Shown piece by piece: positions 504-7,269 of a stretch of 7,269 nt of DNA (its first letter is position 1; every line of letters begins with the position of its first letter). Position numbers and translations under genes: made by a program. The notes beneath the pieces were generated by a model. It was not told the DNA's origin, ran no database searches, and worked only from the letters and a program-made list of their open reading frames with translations. The stretch is from the NCBI GenBank assembly GCA_028818995.1, contig JAPPMR010000691.1, positions 1-7,269 on the forward strand. The letters run 5' to 3'. The DNA is from Candidatus Poribacteria bacterium. GTDB lineage: Bacteria; Poribacteria; WGA-4E; WGA-3G.

Positions 504-1349
504 TTACTTGACAATTTCGACAGCGCGGATCCTACGGTGAAGAACGAAGATACAGAGAGCTATCAGGGCAATTTGGATGAGGAGTGCCCAGACCCAATGC
601 ACAGCATAGTTGGAGGTATCCCCAAATAGTGCGGTGCCGAGAATGTCGTAGTTTGCCCAAATAGATACTAAAGCTACTTTGCTGGTGCGTGTAATGACTT
701 TGAGGATTTCATAGATAACAGGCGAGCCAAACCACACAGCGCAGAAGCCTATTATGGCATAGCGAGGATTTGAGGTGAGCGATGAAAATACCAACATCAA
801 CACGCTGGAAACGAGGATCATAATTATGGAATAGGCGATGATTGAAAAAGGCATCCAATAGTTCTCTTTCAAAAACGAGGTATCGGTCAACAGCACGTGT
901 TCAAGAAATAGCAAAAGCCCCGGGATCAGCGTAAGGCAGCTAAGTAATATACCCATGACAGCAAATTTCCCTATAAGATAATCGATCCATGAAATCGGTT
1001 TGGATAGATAAAGGGAGAGCGCGTTGTTCTTCAGATCCGTGGCGATTAACCCGGACCCCCCAAAAACAGCAATCAGCGCGATGAAAAGTGAGGCGTTAAA
1101 TAGGAAATTTTTGAAAAATGCAATGTCAATGTTGATCGGAAACACGGAACCTGGAAACTGATTAACGATATAGATAATTACGGCGTGAGCCAAGATGTAG
1201 ATTGCGGGCGGAATAGCAACGATGAGTCGGACAATCTTGCGTTGTGCAAGCAGTTTCAGTTCTGCCTTTGCGATAATCCACCAGCGTGTATAATGGCTGG
1301 GGTTGAGTGTTCCTTCCCAATGTCGGTAGTTCTGTGTGTGAATAGGCAT
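504..1349 (-). CDS. ABC-2 type transporter permease subunit
   Basis: The 281-residue protein has about six hydrophobic segments (roughly 40-62, 83-104, 126-150, 168-190, 198-216, 250-271), the usual topology and length of ABC-2 type permeases. The stretch around 99-128 (GSGLIATDLKNNALSLYLSK, then PISWIDYLIGK) is the family signature that links the second and third helices: a small-residue run, 'DLKNNAL', and 'SKPIS' followed by 'LIGK'. It would form the membrane channel of an exporter in the inner membrane, driven by a separate ATPase, but no ATPase gene is in the window. The ATG at 1349 is the first start after an in-frame TGA at 1365-1367; no good SD precedes it, so expression may depend on the 1463-1981 gene upstream or on a weak site. 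The N-terminus is a cytoplasmic segment (TRWWIIAKAELKLL) of the type often seen in these permeases. The substrate is unknown. Confidence 0.85.
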   Translation of the reverse strand: MPIHTQNYRHWEGTLNPSHYTRWWIIAKAELKLLAQRKIVRLIVAIPPAIYILAHAVIIYIVNQFPGSVFPINIDIAFFKNFLFNASLFIALIAVFGGSGLIATDLKNNALSLYLSKPISWIDYLIGKFAVMGILLSCLTLIPGLLLFLEHVLLTDTSFLKENYWMPFSIIAYSIIMILVSSVLMLVFSSLTSNPRYAIIGFCAVWFGSPVIYEILKVITRTSKVALVSIWANYDILGTALFGDTSNYAVHWVWALLIQIALIALCIFVLHRRIRAVEIVK

Positions 1350-2035: not shown

Positions 2036-2099
2036 ACTTCACCTGTTTAACGTGAGTTTGATAATTAATTTCTGAATTTTTTGTAGAAGAGGTTTTCAT
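2034..2099 (-). CDS. Possible 21-aa small protein or leader peptide
   Basis: ATG at 2099 is preceded by AGAAGGAG with 8 nt spacing, a very good SD for so short an ORF. The product begins MKTSSTKNSEINYQ and ends HVKQVK: polar, Lys/Ser/Thr-rich, with no signal or membrane segment. The TAG stop touches the 7-bp hairpin at 2017-2035, and the next gene (172-aa lipoprotein) starts 52 nt further on. The arrangement resembles a leader peptide followed by a hairpin, but there is no run of one amino-acid codon that would suggest attenuation. It may equally be a chance ORF behind an SD-like purine run. Confidence 0.35.
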   Translation of the reverse strand: MKTSSTKNSEINYQTHVKQVK

Positions 2100-2304
2100 T
2101 AGAGATGCTCCTTCTTTTTACCCCTATATTGGTAGGGTGTTTTGTTCTGGCACATCCTGTGAAGCAAGGGTTATATGACAGTTCCCCGACAGACCGCTTG
2201 GGGAGGGTTGTGTCACAGCGAGGCATTCGCCGACACGTCGTCCGTTAAATCAGCGTGCGGAGTTTCATGCGAATTCTCTGAAATACAATAAATTATCTTA
2301 ACGT
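2100..2304. other. Intergenic stretch without a recognised gene
   Basis: This is the remaining part of the 323-nt gap between the two lipoprotein genes. Beyond the SD of the 21-aa ORF it holds a TCCCC/GGGGA inverted repeat (2183-2187 with 2200-2204), a CCCTA/TAGGG pair around 2121-2137, and a 14-nt sequence (2239-2252) that recurs at 3248-3261. On the minus strand TATAAC (about 2172-2177) could be a -10 box but has no convincing -35. I see no known riboswitch core and no terminator after the 216-aa gene. Confidence 0.4.
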
Positions 2305-2955
2305 CTACATTTTTCGATAGACGCGCGTGGTGTCGTTTGTCAGTGTGAGTCGGGCACCCGACACGCTCCATGTATAGGTCGAAAGTTTTAATCCGCTCTG
2401 GATCGTCTGTTGAAATCCTTCTGAAAACCCCTGTTCAAATTCTCGCTGAAAATCGGCGAGTGCTGCGGGGGTGTCTTTCAGTCTTGGATCCACGTGGGTC
2501 CACTGGAAATCTCCCAAGGTAAAGTTCTCAACCTCACCGTAGATCATTTCCAGCGTCGTCCCTGCCACAACGTAGTTTCCTTTTGTCGTGTAATCAATGG
2601 GCACGCGAAACACCAAGTGAACTCCCGCCAACGTTTCTGAGACGGTGCAGTCAAACGTCACGCGGACCTTCCTATACAAGGCAGTGTCACTTGCGAATAC
2701 AAGTTTGGTTCTTGCGGTGTATAGTTCTATCTTGAAACCTGCCTCCTGCGTGGTGAGGGCACCTTGAAGGGATTCGATTGGCGTTTTTCCATCAATCGTG
2801 AGGAGTTCCCAGATTCCGACTAATTGGCTCGCTGGGTCCTCCGGTGGCAGAATGTCTTTCTCACCAGTGCATCCGAAAAGTCCAAGTAATATCAGAAAAA
2901 AAACGTACAGACAAGAGATGCTGCTGTATCTCCCGCGGGGTTTTGTGACCGTCAA
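2305..2955 (-). CDS. Lipocalin-like lipoprotein, 216 aa
   Basis: The N-terminus has a lipoprotein signal: basic residues (KPRGRY), hydrophobic core (LYVFFLILLGLF) and box Leu-Phe-Gly-Cys with Cys29. The mature chain begins with LVGIWELLTIDGKTP, the G-x-W strand typical of lipocalin-like small-molecule or stress-related beta-barrels, continues with strands such as GVHLVFRVPIDYTTKGNYVVAGTTLEMIYG, and ends with YTWSVSGARLTLTN...TRVYRK, the usual closing strands of that fold. An insert rich in Phe, Glu and Gln (about 165-190, FQREFEQGFSEGFQQTIQSG) is predicted helical and may be lineage-specific. The start is TTG, supported by GAGGAGA 7 nt upstream; it lies 2 nt after the stop of the 91-aa gene, so the two are very likely co-transcribed and translationally linked. 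Ligand and function are unknown. Confidence 0.8.
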   Translation of the reverse strand: MTVTKPRGRYSSISCLYVFFLILLGLFGCTGEKDILPPEDPASQLVGIWELLTIDGKTPIESLQGALTTQEAGFKIELYTARTKLVFASDTALYRKVRVTFDCTVSETLAGVHLVFRVPIDYTTKGNYVVAGTTLEMIYGEVENFTLGDFQWTHVDPRLKDTPAALADFQREFEQGFSEGFQQTIQSGLKLSTYTWSVSGARLTLTNDTTRVYRKM

Positions 2956-2957
2956 AC

Positions 2958-3233
2958 TTACGTCTCCTCATATTCTCTGATATCTATATATCCCTCACCT
3001 TCTTTTACTGTGTTGGCTATATAGTTATGCACCCATTCAGCTTTTCGTTTTTCAGAAAATTGCGAAATGACAAAATCAATATTCTTCTCCTTATCCAAAC
3101 TTGCGATCTTCAGATTATAGCCATCACCTGGAACTGATATATCTCCTGAAAGAGAAGTATAGCCTTCTGCCTCTGTGATATATATCCTGCATCCAGTAGC
3201 ATCTATAAGTCCTTTTGTGCAATTAATAATCAC
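2958..3233 (-). CDS. Hypothetical protein, 91 aa
   Basis: I do not recognise this protein. It has no signal peptide or membrane segment. The N-terminal half (CTKGLIDATGCRIYITEAEG, then SLSGDISVPGDGYNLKIASL) looks beta-rich, with Cys5 and Cys15; the C-terminal half (FSEKRKAEWVHNYIANTVKE) looks helical and ends in an acidic tail. The start is GTG, chosen because GGAGGT lies 5 nt upstream; the ATG nearby on that strand (3246) is out of frame and stops after 7 codons. It is the first gene of the minus-strand run, and its stop overlaps the SD region of the lipocalin-like gene. It lies downstream of the minus-strand promoter and CRISPR-like unit at 3349-3465, about 200 nt away. Confidence 0.65.
   Translation of the reverse strand: MIINCTKGLIDATGCRIYITEAEGYTSLSGDISVPGDGYNLKIASLDKEKNIDFVISQFSEKRKAEWVHNYIANTVKEGEGYIDIREYEET
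2963..2969 (-). promoter_or_regulatory. SD site GAGGAGA that sets a TTG start
   Basis: On the minus strand GAGGAGA is followed by 7 nt and TTG at 2955. It lies inside the last codons of the 91-aa gene, which indicates coupled translation. Confidence 0.7.
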
Positions 3234-3238
3234 TGATT

Positions 3239-3244
3239 ACCTCC
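3239..3244 (-). promoter_or_regulatory. SD site GGAGGT that sets a GTG start
   Basis: On the minus strand GGAGGT is followed by 5 nt and GTG at 3233. It supports the non-ATG start of the 91-aa protein. Confidence 0.7.
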
Positions 3245-3317
3245 ATCCGTCCGTTAAATCATCTACCCAGGTCAATACGAAATCTATCTGAAAATCATCG
3301 GCAAATAGCCTCAATTG

Positions 3318-3344
3318 AATGTAACGAAAGCCTTTTGTTACGTT
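3318..3344. other. 27-nt near-palindrome next to the CRISPR-like repeat
   Basis: GTAACGAAAG (3321-3330), one base, then CTTTTGTTAC (3332-3341) match as a 10-bp inverted repeat with one G-U position; three further pairs extend it to 3318-3344. It ends 4 nt before the intact 30-nt repeat. As DNA it has the form of a dimeric regulator's operator; as RNA the inner bases would have to open to make a loop. It could end or protect the minus-strand RNA described below. No strong T-run follows on either strand. Confidence 0.55.
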
Positions 3345-3348
3345 TAGT

Positions 3349-3445
3349 GTTTCTATTCCACACTGGTTCGATTAAAAGTCAGGAAAATGATCATGTTTCG
3401 CGGTTCTTGTCGGAAGTCTCTATTCCACATTGTTTATTATACCGC
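3349..3445 (-). CRISPR. Miniature CRISPR-like unit: one repeat, one spacer, one degenerate repeat
   Basis: The intact repeat is 3349-3378 (30 nt; plus strand begins GTTTCTATTCCACACTGG and ends CGATTAAAAG). A 37-nt spacer follows at 3379-3415. The second copy at 3416-3445 begins GTCTCTATTCCACATTG: 17 of the first 20 positions match, but only 2 of the last 10. On the minus strand the repeat ends in GGAATAGAAAC, which resembles the ATTGAAAC handle of a repeat family often tied to type I-B and type III systems (from memory). That makes the minus strand the likely transcribed strand. In that direction the first repeat is degenerate at its 5' half while the handle half is kept, and the second repeat is intact. 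Repeat and spacer lengths are standard. No cas genes are present and no further repeat units were found on either side. Confidence 0.7.
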
Positions 3446-3465
3446 TTTTAGGGGACAGATGTCAA
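3436..3465 (-). promoter_or_regulatory. Consensus sigma-70 promoter reading into the CRISPR-like unit
   Basis: On the minus strand TTGACA (3465-3460) and TATAAT (3441-3436) are separated by 18 nt; both boxes are perfect. The -10 box lies in the decayed part of the degenerate repeat. The expected start, near 3429-3430, would give an RNA that begins about 14 nt before the spacer and so keeps the repeat-derived handle. The same promoter could also feed the minus-strand genes from 3233 on. Confidence 0.75.
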
Positions 3466-3544
3466 TCTAAAATCCGCTTTGTATCTTTTCCCAAAAGTGA
3501 TATAATGATACCTATAAATGCAGGATAATTCGTGATATTTTCGC

Positions 3545-5953: not shown

Positions 5954-7269
5954 ATGCGTATTAGAAAATGTTTTTTGATCCTAATATTGATGCTCATTGT
6001 TGTCGCAACAAGTGCTGATTTGACAATAAAGGTACATCCTAATAACGGATGGGGTGGTGTACCTACCACTAATATAACACTATTATGTGAGAATGTGGTA
6101 AGTCATTATCAGGATTATCTAAGAGAGGAATATAAATTAGAAGGACACATCAATGTATACTATGATTCTGGAGGACCTTTTGTTATAGGTAATGATGTAT
6201 ATATCTCGGCAAAGGGTACTAATTTACCTCAATTCATATATCAGTTTTCACACGAAGTGACACACATTCTACACAATCACCATATAACATCTACAAATAA
6301 CCCTAACTTGTGGTTTCATGAATCTATATGTATGGTGTCGTCTATATGGGTTCTAAATGAAATGAGTAAAACTTGGAAGGATAATCCGCCATATCCGAAA
6401 TGGAAAATATATAGGCATAATCTCAAAAATTATGCGGACACCATTATGAATATAGATGCGGTCCAATATAATGGAACAGCAGAAGAGTGGATAAAAGAAT
6501 GGGAAGATTTTTTGCGTACTCAGTATAATAATTTTTCACAACATTTAACGGTCGCTCAACTTTCATATACTCATTTCTTAGGTATTTTTGAGGAATATCC
6601 ACAGGTTTGGAACGCTGTACGACAAATGCCAGCCACAGATGTAAAGATAAATGAATATATGTTTGATTGGCTAGCTTCTGTAAATGATGCTGATAAAGAA
6701 GTTGTGCAGCTACTTATCAATGCAATGGAACTTTCCGATGAACCTGTTGCGTCTTCCAACACCATGCCAGATATAGTATTGGGTGAAATAGGCGATTATA
6801 TACATCTCACTTGCAAAAATAAAAATAGTATGGATTCGCTTGTGCCTATAAATCCACCTAAACAATGGTATGGTTACACTACGGATGTGACAGAAAAGTA
6901 TCCAGATGGCACAAGAGCACCAAGAACAGGTTTGCATGATAATTTTGATGAGATGCACATACTGGAACATTGGATATATACCCATGCGCCAGCAGTATTA
7001 ACATACGATATTTCTTCATTGCCAGTTCTATATTTTAGTTCTGATGTTATTTTACCACATCCTCATTGTGGTGGTGCTGCGTCAATAGAATTAATAGCAC
7101 TTGCAGATGACGTGGAAATTTACTCTAAGGAAGTCTATTTAGTGGATTCTGGTATTCATATAGAGTTTGATATACCATCTAACACCGAAAAATTTGATTT
7201 ATTAATAGGGGATCTTGGCAATCAAGGTTGCGATCATGTTGTTTTAGGTGAACCAAGAATATATATAAC
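5954..7269 (+). CDS. Secreted HExxH metallopeptidase with C-terminal NPCBM-like domain, 3' end cut off
   Basis: The frame is open from ATG 5954 (GAGGAG, 8 nt spacing) to the window edge, 438 codons without a stop. Residues 1-21 are a signal peptide (RIRK, hydrophobic core, ATSA before Asp22). His100-Glu-Val-Thr-His104 is a zinc-binding HExxH, and Glu123 in LWFHES lies 18 residues later, the HExxH-x18-E spacing of gluzincins; Glu101 would be the catalytic base. The region after it (SICMVSSIWVLNEM, NPPYPKWKIY) resembles, from memory, a family of uncharacterised bacterial secreted peptidases with WFEES. From about 328 on, an NPCBM-like sugar-binding domain follows: YDISSLPVLYFSSDVILPHP, HCGGAASIELIALADD (369-384 area) and GDLGNQGCDHVVLGEPR (to about 435). 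The product probably cuts protein while bound to glycan outside the cytoplasm. The gene is AT-richer than the genes at the left end. Confidence 0.8.
   Translation, partial: MRIRKCFLILILMLIVVATSADLTIKVHPNNGWGGVPTTNITLLCENVVSHYQDYLREEYKLEGHINVYYDSGGPFVIGNDVYISAKGTNLPQFIYQFSHEVTHILHNHHITSTNNPNLWFHESICMVSSIWVLNEMSKTWKDNPPYPKWKIYRHNLKNYADTIMNIDAVQYNGTAEEWIKEWEDFLRTQYNNFSQHLTVAQLSYTHFLGIFEEYPQVWNAVRQMPATDVKINEYMFDWLASVNDADKEVVQLLINAMELSDEPVASSNTMPDIVLGEIGDYIHLTCKNKNSMDSLVPINPPKQWYGYTTDVTEKYPDGTRAPRTGLHDNFDEMHILEHWIYTHAPAVLTYDISSLPVLYFSSDVILPHPHCGGAASIELIALADDVEIYSKEVYLVDSGIHIEFDIPSNTEKFDLLIGDLGNQGCDHVVLGEPRIYI

Follow-up and report, generated by a model that had tools for sequence, protein, structure and literature searches.

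A CRISPR array fragment at the end of a DNA segment probably moved by an IS982-type transposase in Candidatus Poribacteria

Introduction

Some insertion sequences mobilise neighbouring DNA by means of a surrogate end, as in the one-ended events of the ISEcp1 type. For mcr-1, PMC5821093 describes segments with two, one or no flanking copies of ISApl1. Single CRISPR units with a function of their own are described for CreTA. According to the accounts in PMC9458426 and PMC8501985, the CreA guide has a single spacer, its first repeat is degenerate but retains the handle, and spacer positions 1–5 and 7–11 pair with a promoter beside a PAM; the same accounts derive the CreTA repeats from minimal CRISPRs, which then degenerated.

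Here we analyse a 7269-nt stretch of DNA from Candidatus Poribacteria (contig JAPPMR010000691.1), referred to throughout as the window. A preliminary description, made from the sequence of the window, had noted a solitary CRISPR-like unit with a degenerate first repeat and a -10 box in the lost half of this repeat, and had considered that this pattern fits a purpose-built guide of the CreA/CreR kind better than random decay. Comparison with other poribacterial genomes leads to a different reading, in which the unit is the end of a transposed segment.

The repeat-spacer unit

The unit and its promoter consist of the following features.

3349..3378, minus strand: complete CRISPR repeat, in the crRNA sense CTTTTAATCGAACCAGTGTGGAATAGAAAC, with 1–3 mismatches in 30 to the repeats of poribacterial arrays
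3379..3415, minus strand: spacer, 37 nt
3416..3430, minus strand: truncated repeat, 3' half, with the 8-nt handle ATAGAGAC, one change from ATAGAAAC; stops at the insertion junction
3436..3465, minus strand: promoter TTGACA-N18-TATAAT, 12/12 consensus, with the -35 box at 3460–3465 and the -10 box at 3436–3441

Read along the minus strand, the order is TTGACA (3465–3460), 18 bases, TATAAT (3441–3436), AAACA (3435–3431), the half repeat (3430–3416), the spacer (3415–3379) and the repeat (3378–3349), followed by ORFs of 91 and 216 amino acids, a lipoprotein gene and a permease gene.

The repeat at 3349–3378, the 37-nt spacer at 3379–3415 and a second copy at 3416–3435, with 17 of 20 positions matching between the copies, are as the preliminary description gave them. 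It was also right that the handle half is the half kept on the minus strand, and that the -10 box occupies the half that is lost. The agreement of the two copies is beyond chance: for the 20-nt core, the best match in 2000 dinucleotide shuffles of the neighbouring window DNA was 15, and none of the shuffles reached 17. The inserted part of the second copy is 3416–3430 only (15 nt, 13 of them matching), and the remaining five bases of the 17/20 match are the AAACA of a target repeat, outside the inserted DNA. In the crRNA sense, it is repeat 1 that is truncated, and repeat 2 (3349–3378) is not degenerate. The Rfam model CRISPR-DR2 covers 3349–3378 over all 30 positions, at 26.6 bits and an E value of 0.12, which is below its gathering score of 37. 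The period of the unit is 67 bp, like that of the arrays of relatives (about 65–70 bp).

The same repeat in poribacterial arrays

Allowing up to 3 mismatches, the repeat is found in 28 of 46 poribacterial genomes, 15 of which hold at least 15 copies, so that the absence from relatives that the preliminary description had thought might speak against it is not observed; a reversed control pattern of the repeat is found in none of the 46. In one genome (G002) a type I-B cas operon (cas8b1, cas7, cas5, cas3, cas1) precedes the array in the same strand sense, and in another (G014) it lies beside type III-A genes (cas10, csm4). Its kinship with the repeats of these arrays identifies 3349–3378 as a true CRISPR repeat, of the same kind as those in the type I-B/III arrays of Candidatus Poribacteria, and the unit as CRISPR-derived.

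Seventeen loci were examined for leaders. In nine arrays the -10 box of the leader promoter ends 21–22 bp before the first repeat. In L135 the distance is 24 bp, and in L134 it is 24 bp to the first repeat and 90 bp to the second; L050 has none in 220 bp, and L132, L058, L087, L068 and L069 start inside an array or at a contig edge. Judged from the orientation of the G002 array behind its cas operon and from the leader promoters of the nine arrays, the minus strand is the crRNA sense of the unit in the window. The unit is an array fragment and not a complete array, because the -10 box overlaps the place of repeat 1 and there is no leader 21–24 bp ahead.

Of 84 genomes from the phylum, 68 have a Cas6 match at an E value of 0.001, and 59 have one over the curated cut-off. 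In G001, the genome of the closest relative fetched (L001), a search found no Cas6, and no copy of the repeat with up to 3 mismatches. The same genome has a solitary CRISPR-like repeat, CTTCTAATCGAACCAGTGTGGAATTGAAGT, with 4 mismatches (L104 1513–1542, G001:C61), between genes for tRNA-Lys (1430–1504) and tRNA-Glu (1561–1637).

Two further loci are candidate ectopic mini-arrays. One is a two-repeat array at about 2868–3017 of L134 (G025:C94), whose first repeat follows a leader promoter TTGGCA-N18-TATAAT at a distance of 24 bp; downstream of it there is more degenerate sequence that resembles the repeat. The other is a one-repeat remnant at about 2926–3010 of L135 (G020:C74), with a similar TTGGCA-N18-TATAAT leader promoter 24 bp ahead.

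The promoter ahead of the unit

A promoter scan of the region found two promoter-like sites against 1.9 expected: this one, and another on the plus strand with a score of 11. We fetched 48 syntenic loci, all titled Poribacteria, and the lipoprotein gene is present in every one. A promoter-like match lies within 400 bp upstream of it in 38 of the 48 (the upstream sequence of L023 and L030 is short), and in 35 this consists of TTGACA and TATAAT with at most one mismatch, 13–192 bp before the gene. The three left out of the 35 (L004, L027 and L028) look like other promoters, and 10 loci have no promoter match.

The lipoprotein promoter of L001 is identical to that of the window in both hexamers and in 17 of the 18 bases between them, and runs straight into the leader of the gene. 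The inter-hexamer sequence of the window promoter differs from that of the nine CRISPR leaders. On this comparison, the promoter in the window is the ancestral promoter of the lipoprotein gene and not a CRISPR leader. The preliminary description had counted the -10 box in the lost half towards a guide; the promoter is instead that of the lipoprotein gene, shared by 35 of 48 relatives, none of which has the unit.

The inserted segment

The segment that separates this promoter from its gene, and the genes within and behind it, are as follows.

2049..3430, no strand: inserted segment, 1382 bp, missing from the site in the relatives compared
3431..3435, no strand: target-site duplication, promoter-side copy, TGTTT on the plus strand and AAACA on the minus strand (TGTTTA, 3431–3436, if 6 bp)
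2044..2048, no strand: target-site duplication, gene-side copy, TGTTT on the plus strand (TGTTTA, 2044–2049, if 6 bp)
2958..3233, minus strand: passenger ORF, 91 aa, start codon GTG; no Pfam match; database relatives at 58–76% identity
2305..2955, minus strand: passenger ORF, 216 aa, with an N-terminus like that of a lipoprotein; without a Pfam match; a 99% identical protein in another Poribacteria genome
1463..1981, minus strand: native lipoprotein-like gene, 172 aa, with its promoter now about 1.4 kb further off
504..1349, minus strand: native ABC-2 type permease, following the lipoprotein gene in the same orientation; its Pfam match falls short of the curated cut-off

The relatives supply the empty site. 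In L001, positions 1–2049 of the window adjoin 3431–3478 (at L001 9315 and 9320, the overlap being the duplicated bases), and L002 has the same arrangement, with 1–2041 joined to 3433–3474. The empty site in L001 is TATAATAAACAGGTGAAG; the corresponding junctions in the window are TATAATAAACA-ATGTGG and CACGTT-AAACAGGTGAAG. The direct repeat AAACA thus flanks the segment, with a length of 4–6 bp by choice of boundary. None of the 48 loci holds the CRISPR repeat at the syntenic site with up to 8 mismatches allowed: a long array here in relatives would, by the preliminary description, have spoken against its reading, and they have nothing. Five off-register 15-mer matches resembling the repeat, each with 4 mismatches, occur in 5 of the 48 upstream regions and were left out of this count.

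In what is probably one and the same Poribacteria genome, the relative of the 216-aa passenger has 99% identity and that of the permease only 95%, and this difference suggests a recent spread of the passenger. The 91-aa protein has 8 database matches, among which the genome with the 99% relative was not recognised. Relatives of the permease in Candidatus Poribacteria, 94% identical, are named 'ABC transporter permease subunit'. Among the best 8–10 candidates from each of 84 genomes there was no further copy of the segment, and a DNA search for a donor gave only short matches besides the repeats and IS tips. These include 75 bp at the end of the 216-aa gene (2300–2374), 93% identical to G011:C122 8408–8482, where the rest of the gene was not found, 82–83 bp at 78% in G032 (window 2182–2263), and 26 bp in G081.

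L001 carries another insertion of its own (about 7904–9280), which has the inverted ends GTCACTTACCCCC and is situated immediately upstream of the lipoprotein promoter, so that this intergenic region may attract insertions. Elsewhere in the window, a long ORF at 5954–7267, open at the window end, has a weak NPCBM domain match in its C-terminal part, below the curated cut-off.

The IS982 tip and the proposed surrogate tip

The two ends of the segment are very different. The end further from the promoter is a recognisable IS end.

2049..2088, plus strand: IS982-family terminal sequence, with the tip AACGTGAGTTTGATAAT facing outward; the spanning matches listed in G005, G006 and G077 are 95–98% identical

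This end starts AACGTGAGTTTGATAATTAATTTC, a sequence that is dispersed over at least several places in each of G005 and G006 and at least ten in G077. The tip at 2049 has the top score of 14,490 window positions. In the loci examined there are 10 pairs of such tips facing each other, of which five are flanked by A/T-rich direct target repeats of 5–6 bp and five have no clear duplication. The transposases of the tip elements scanned belong to PF13612, which we take to be the transposase family of IS982 elements.

At the end nearer to the promoter, a second inverted tip is represented only by a weak surrogate, with 8 of 14 matches and a one-base offset. Read from 3431, the junction ranks 44th of 14,490, but leaves a duplication of 4 bp, where the family has 5–6; if the duplication is taken as 5 bp (AAACA), the surrogate tip is shifted by one base from its best register and ranks 7728th of 14,490. 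Because a second inverted tip is absent, the segment is not classed as an IS982 element itself; it is likely to be a product of an IS982 transposase. Within the segment we recognised no ORF for a transposase, which would have acted in trans or have been lost.

Origin of the unit

Whichever mechanism was responsible, the comparisons above make us very confident that the inserted DNA brought the CRISPR fragment with it, as one of its ends. How the segment came to have this end is less certain, and we consider that it was probably transposed into the leader of the lipoprotein gene by way of its one IS982 tip and a surrogate tip, carrying at its end the half repeat, the spacer and the full repeat. 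In this event the IS982 transposase would have paired the true tip with a weak look-alike inside a CRISPR repeat (AATGTGGAATAGA compared with AACGTGAGTTTGA), and the surrogate tip would have cut repeat 1 in half and left it as the degenerate first repeat. The segment would have inserted between the existing promoter and the lipoprotein gene, with the permease gene behind. Such a pairing would explain in one step why there is a tip at one end, why the target is duplicated and why the repeat is truncated. The -10 box in the lost half and the degenerate state of repeat 1, which the preliminary description had read as design, would likewise be two consequences of a single insertion, and its preference for a purpose-built guide over random decay is not supported, the promoter being older than the unit and the repeat being cut by the junction.

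The main rival is a history in two steps, in which an array segment flanked by two IS982 copies was inserted as a composite transposon, and the promoter-side copy was later deleted together with most of the array, so that half a repeat was left next to AAACA. An IS982-type copy does adjoin an array in G014, which speaks for the one-step history as well: the element occupies L137 7343–8361, has the target duplication ATTATT, and stands 62 bp away from the leader-side end of the array beside the type III-A genes, just upstream of its leader promoter. Furthermore, the repeat and the junction (AACCAGTGTGG and AAACAATGTGG) agree at 9 of 11 positions in register, a possible microhomology for the deletion, and the mcr-1 segments with two, one or no ISApl1 copies (PMC5821093), as described there, are a parallel for decay of this kind. 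This history nevertheless requires two events, the second of which must end exactly at the boundary of target repeat and IS tip, and we regard it as unlikely, if still worth serious attention. We can hardly credit that the unit is the remnant of a long array that decayed in place. Arrays of one and two repeats do exist in Poribacteria (L134, L135), but none of the 48 relatives' loci has the repeat within 8 mismatches, no CRISPR leader precedes the unit, and the flanking target repeat and IS tip would be left unexplained. An assembly chimera of unrelated poribacterial sequences is just as hard to believe: the contig is only 7269 bp long, and IS982 tips are often near contig ends in G006 and G077, but two separate junctions fall at the same 5–6 bases of the empty site, which by chance would happen at about 4^-5. 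Off-target integration by Cas1-Cas2 duplicates a target of the size of a repeat; it was rejected, as the target repeat here is only 4–6 bp long and one of the two repeat copies is shorter than the other.

A guide like CreA or CreR, that is, a minimal CRISPR selected to direct Cascade to a chromosomal promoter, has a form that the unit does resemble: the descriptions in PMC9458426 and PMC8501985 give two flanking repeats, of which the first is more degenerate and keeps the handle, and a strong promoter lies ahead of the unit. Degeneracy of both repeats and physical linkage to cas genes also define such guides. However, this promoter belongs to the lipoprotein gene, the 48 syntenic loci are without the repeat at up to 8 mismatches, and repeat 2 is intact, being within 1–3 mismatches of array repeats. 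No terminator-like site was seen at 3100–3349, on the way from the unit to the following genes, and none of the 11 window ORFs (7.3 kb) scanned with Pfam is a cas gene. The arrangement of promoter and half repeat is absent from the 84 genomes apart from one match with 1 mismatch (G060), which was set aside as chance since the control also gave one match (G047). Partial matches to the spacer within the 7.3-kb window are at best at the level of shuffles, and none pairs at positions 1–5 and 7–11; the site at 6915 on the plus strand, with 23 of 37 matches, a score reached by 3.6% of shuffles, was set aside for its lack of seed pairing. We thus find a guide of this kind very improbable, and a selected regulatory role of the unit is not indicated.

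Searches for other targets of the spacer gave no match within 3 mismatches in 46 poribacterial genomes or in the 84 that include them. The 21-nt seed has no exact counterpart in viral contigs, from which the exact repeat is also absent. A blastn search of 3340–3440 against phage records returned no similar record.

Predicted transcription and its consequences

As a rule, RNA starts 6–8 nt after a -10 box. The promoter would accordingly start RNA at about 3430–3428, at the first inserted bases and 5–7 nt before the handle ATAGAGAC. The transcript would then begin with the unit, in the manner of a pre-crRNA that has no leader, and continue into the mRNA of the four genes that follow, those for the 91-aa protein, the 216-aa protein, the lipoprotein and the permease. 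Because the RNA would start only 5–7 nt before the handle, a Cas6 cut at repeat 1 would not be needed. If the cell has Cas6, a cut at repeat 2 would set free an RNA like a crRNA and shorten the mRNA at its 5' end. A function through RNA structure was set aside, as 3430–3300 folds no better than its shuffles (z 1.36, with 187 of 200 shuffles at least as stable).

The unit could therefore give a crRNA by accident. It could also serve as an ordinary single-spacer immune memory, do nothing at all, or mildly affect the operon by way of Cas6. On the sequences compared here, its origin seems accidental, and not that of an evolved guide.

A more far-reaching possibility is the birth of an ectopic guide in one step: a transposase using a repeat as its surrogate end would set a minimal array behind a resident promoter, and in so doing truncate repeat 1 to its handle, supply expression, and couple the release of crRNA to the host operon. 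We think this distinctly doubtful, but if true it would be a concrete route to guides of the CreA/CreR type with degenerate first repeats. The locus suggests that no selection is needed to make a minimal unit that is driven by a promoter and has a degenerate first repeat, since a single transposition can do so. A degenerate first repeat with a promoter in its lost half is thus, alone, no evidence of a regulatory guide. The locus is a possible origin for 'ectopic repeats', and not a demonstrated regulator. A search of open-licence papers found no published case of a unit made by transposition in this way.

Comparison with known systems

The unit shares with the poribacterial arrays beside type I-B and III-A cas genes a repeat that is 1–3 positions in 30 away from theirs, and a normal spacer length, but it has one spacer, no leader, a halved first repeat and no cas gene recognised nearby. 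With CreA of the CreTA systems it shares the single spacer, the degenerate first repeat that keeps the handle, the second repeat and the strong promoter. It differs in that the promoter is that of a host gene, the second repeat is intact, and no seed-matched target in the window and no cas gene nearby were recognised.

The likeness of the segment to the IS982-family and short paired-tip elements of Poribacteria lies in the tip AACGTGAGTTTGATAAT and in a target duplication such as those of 5–6 bp found at half of the tip pairs; those elements carry paired tips, whereas the segment has only one. ISEcp1-type mobilisation differs from the event proposed here in that the family in the window is IS982, no transposase is left, and the surrogate end is in a CRISPR repeat and matches weakly, but the outcome is alike: one genuine IS tip, one unrelated end, a short target duplication, and passengers between.
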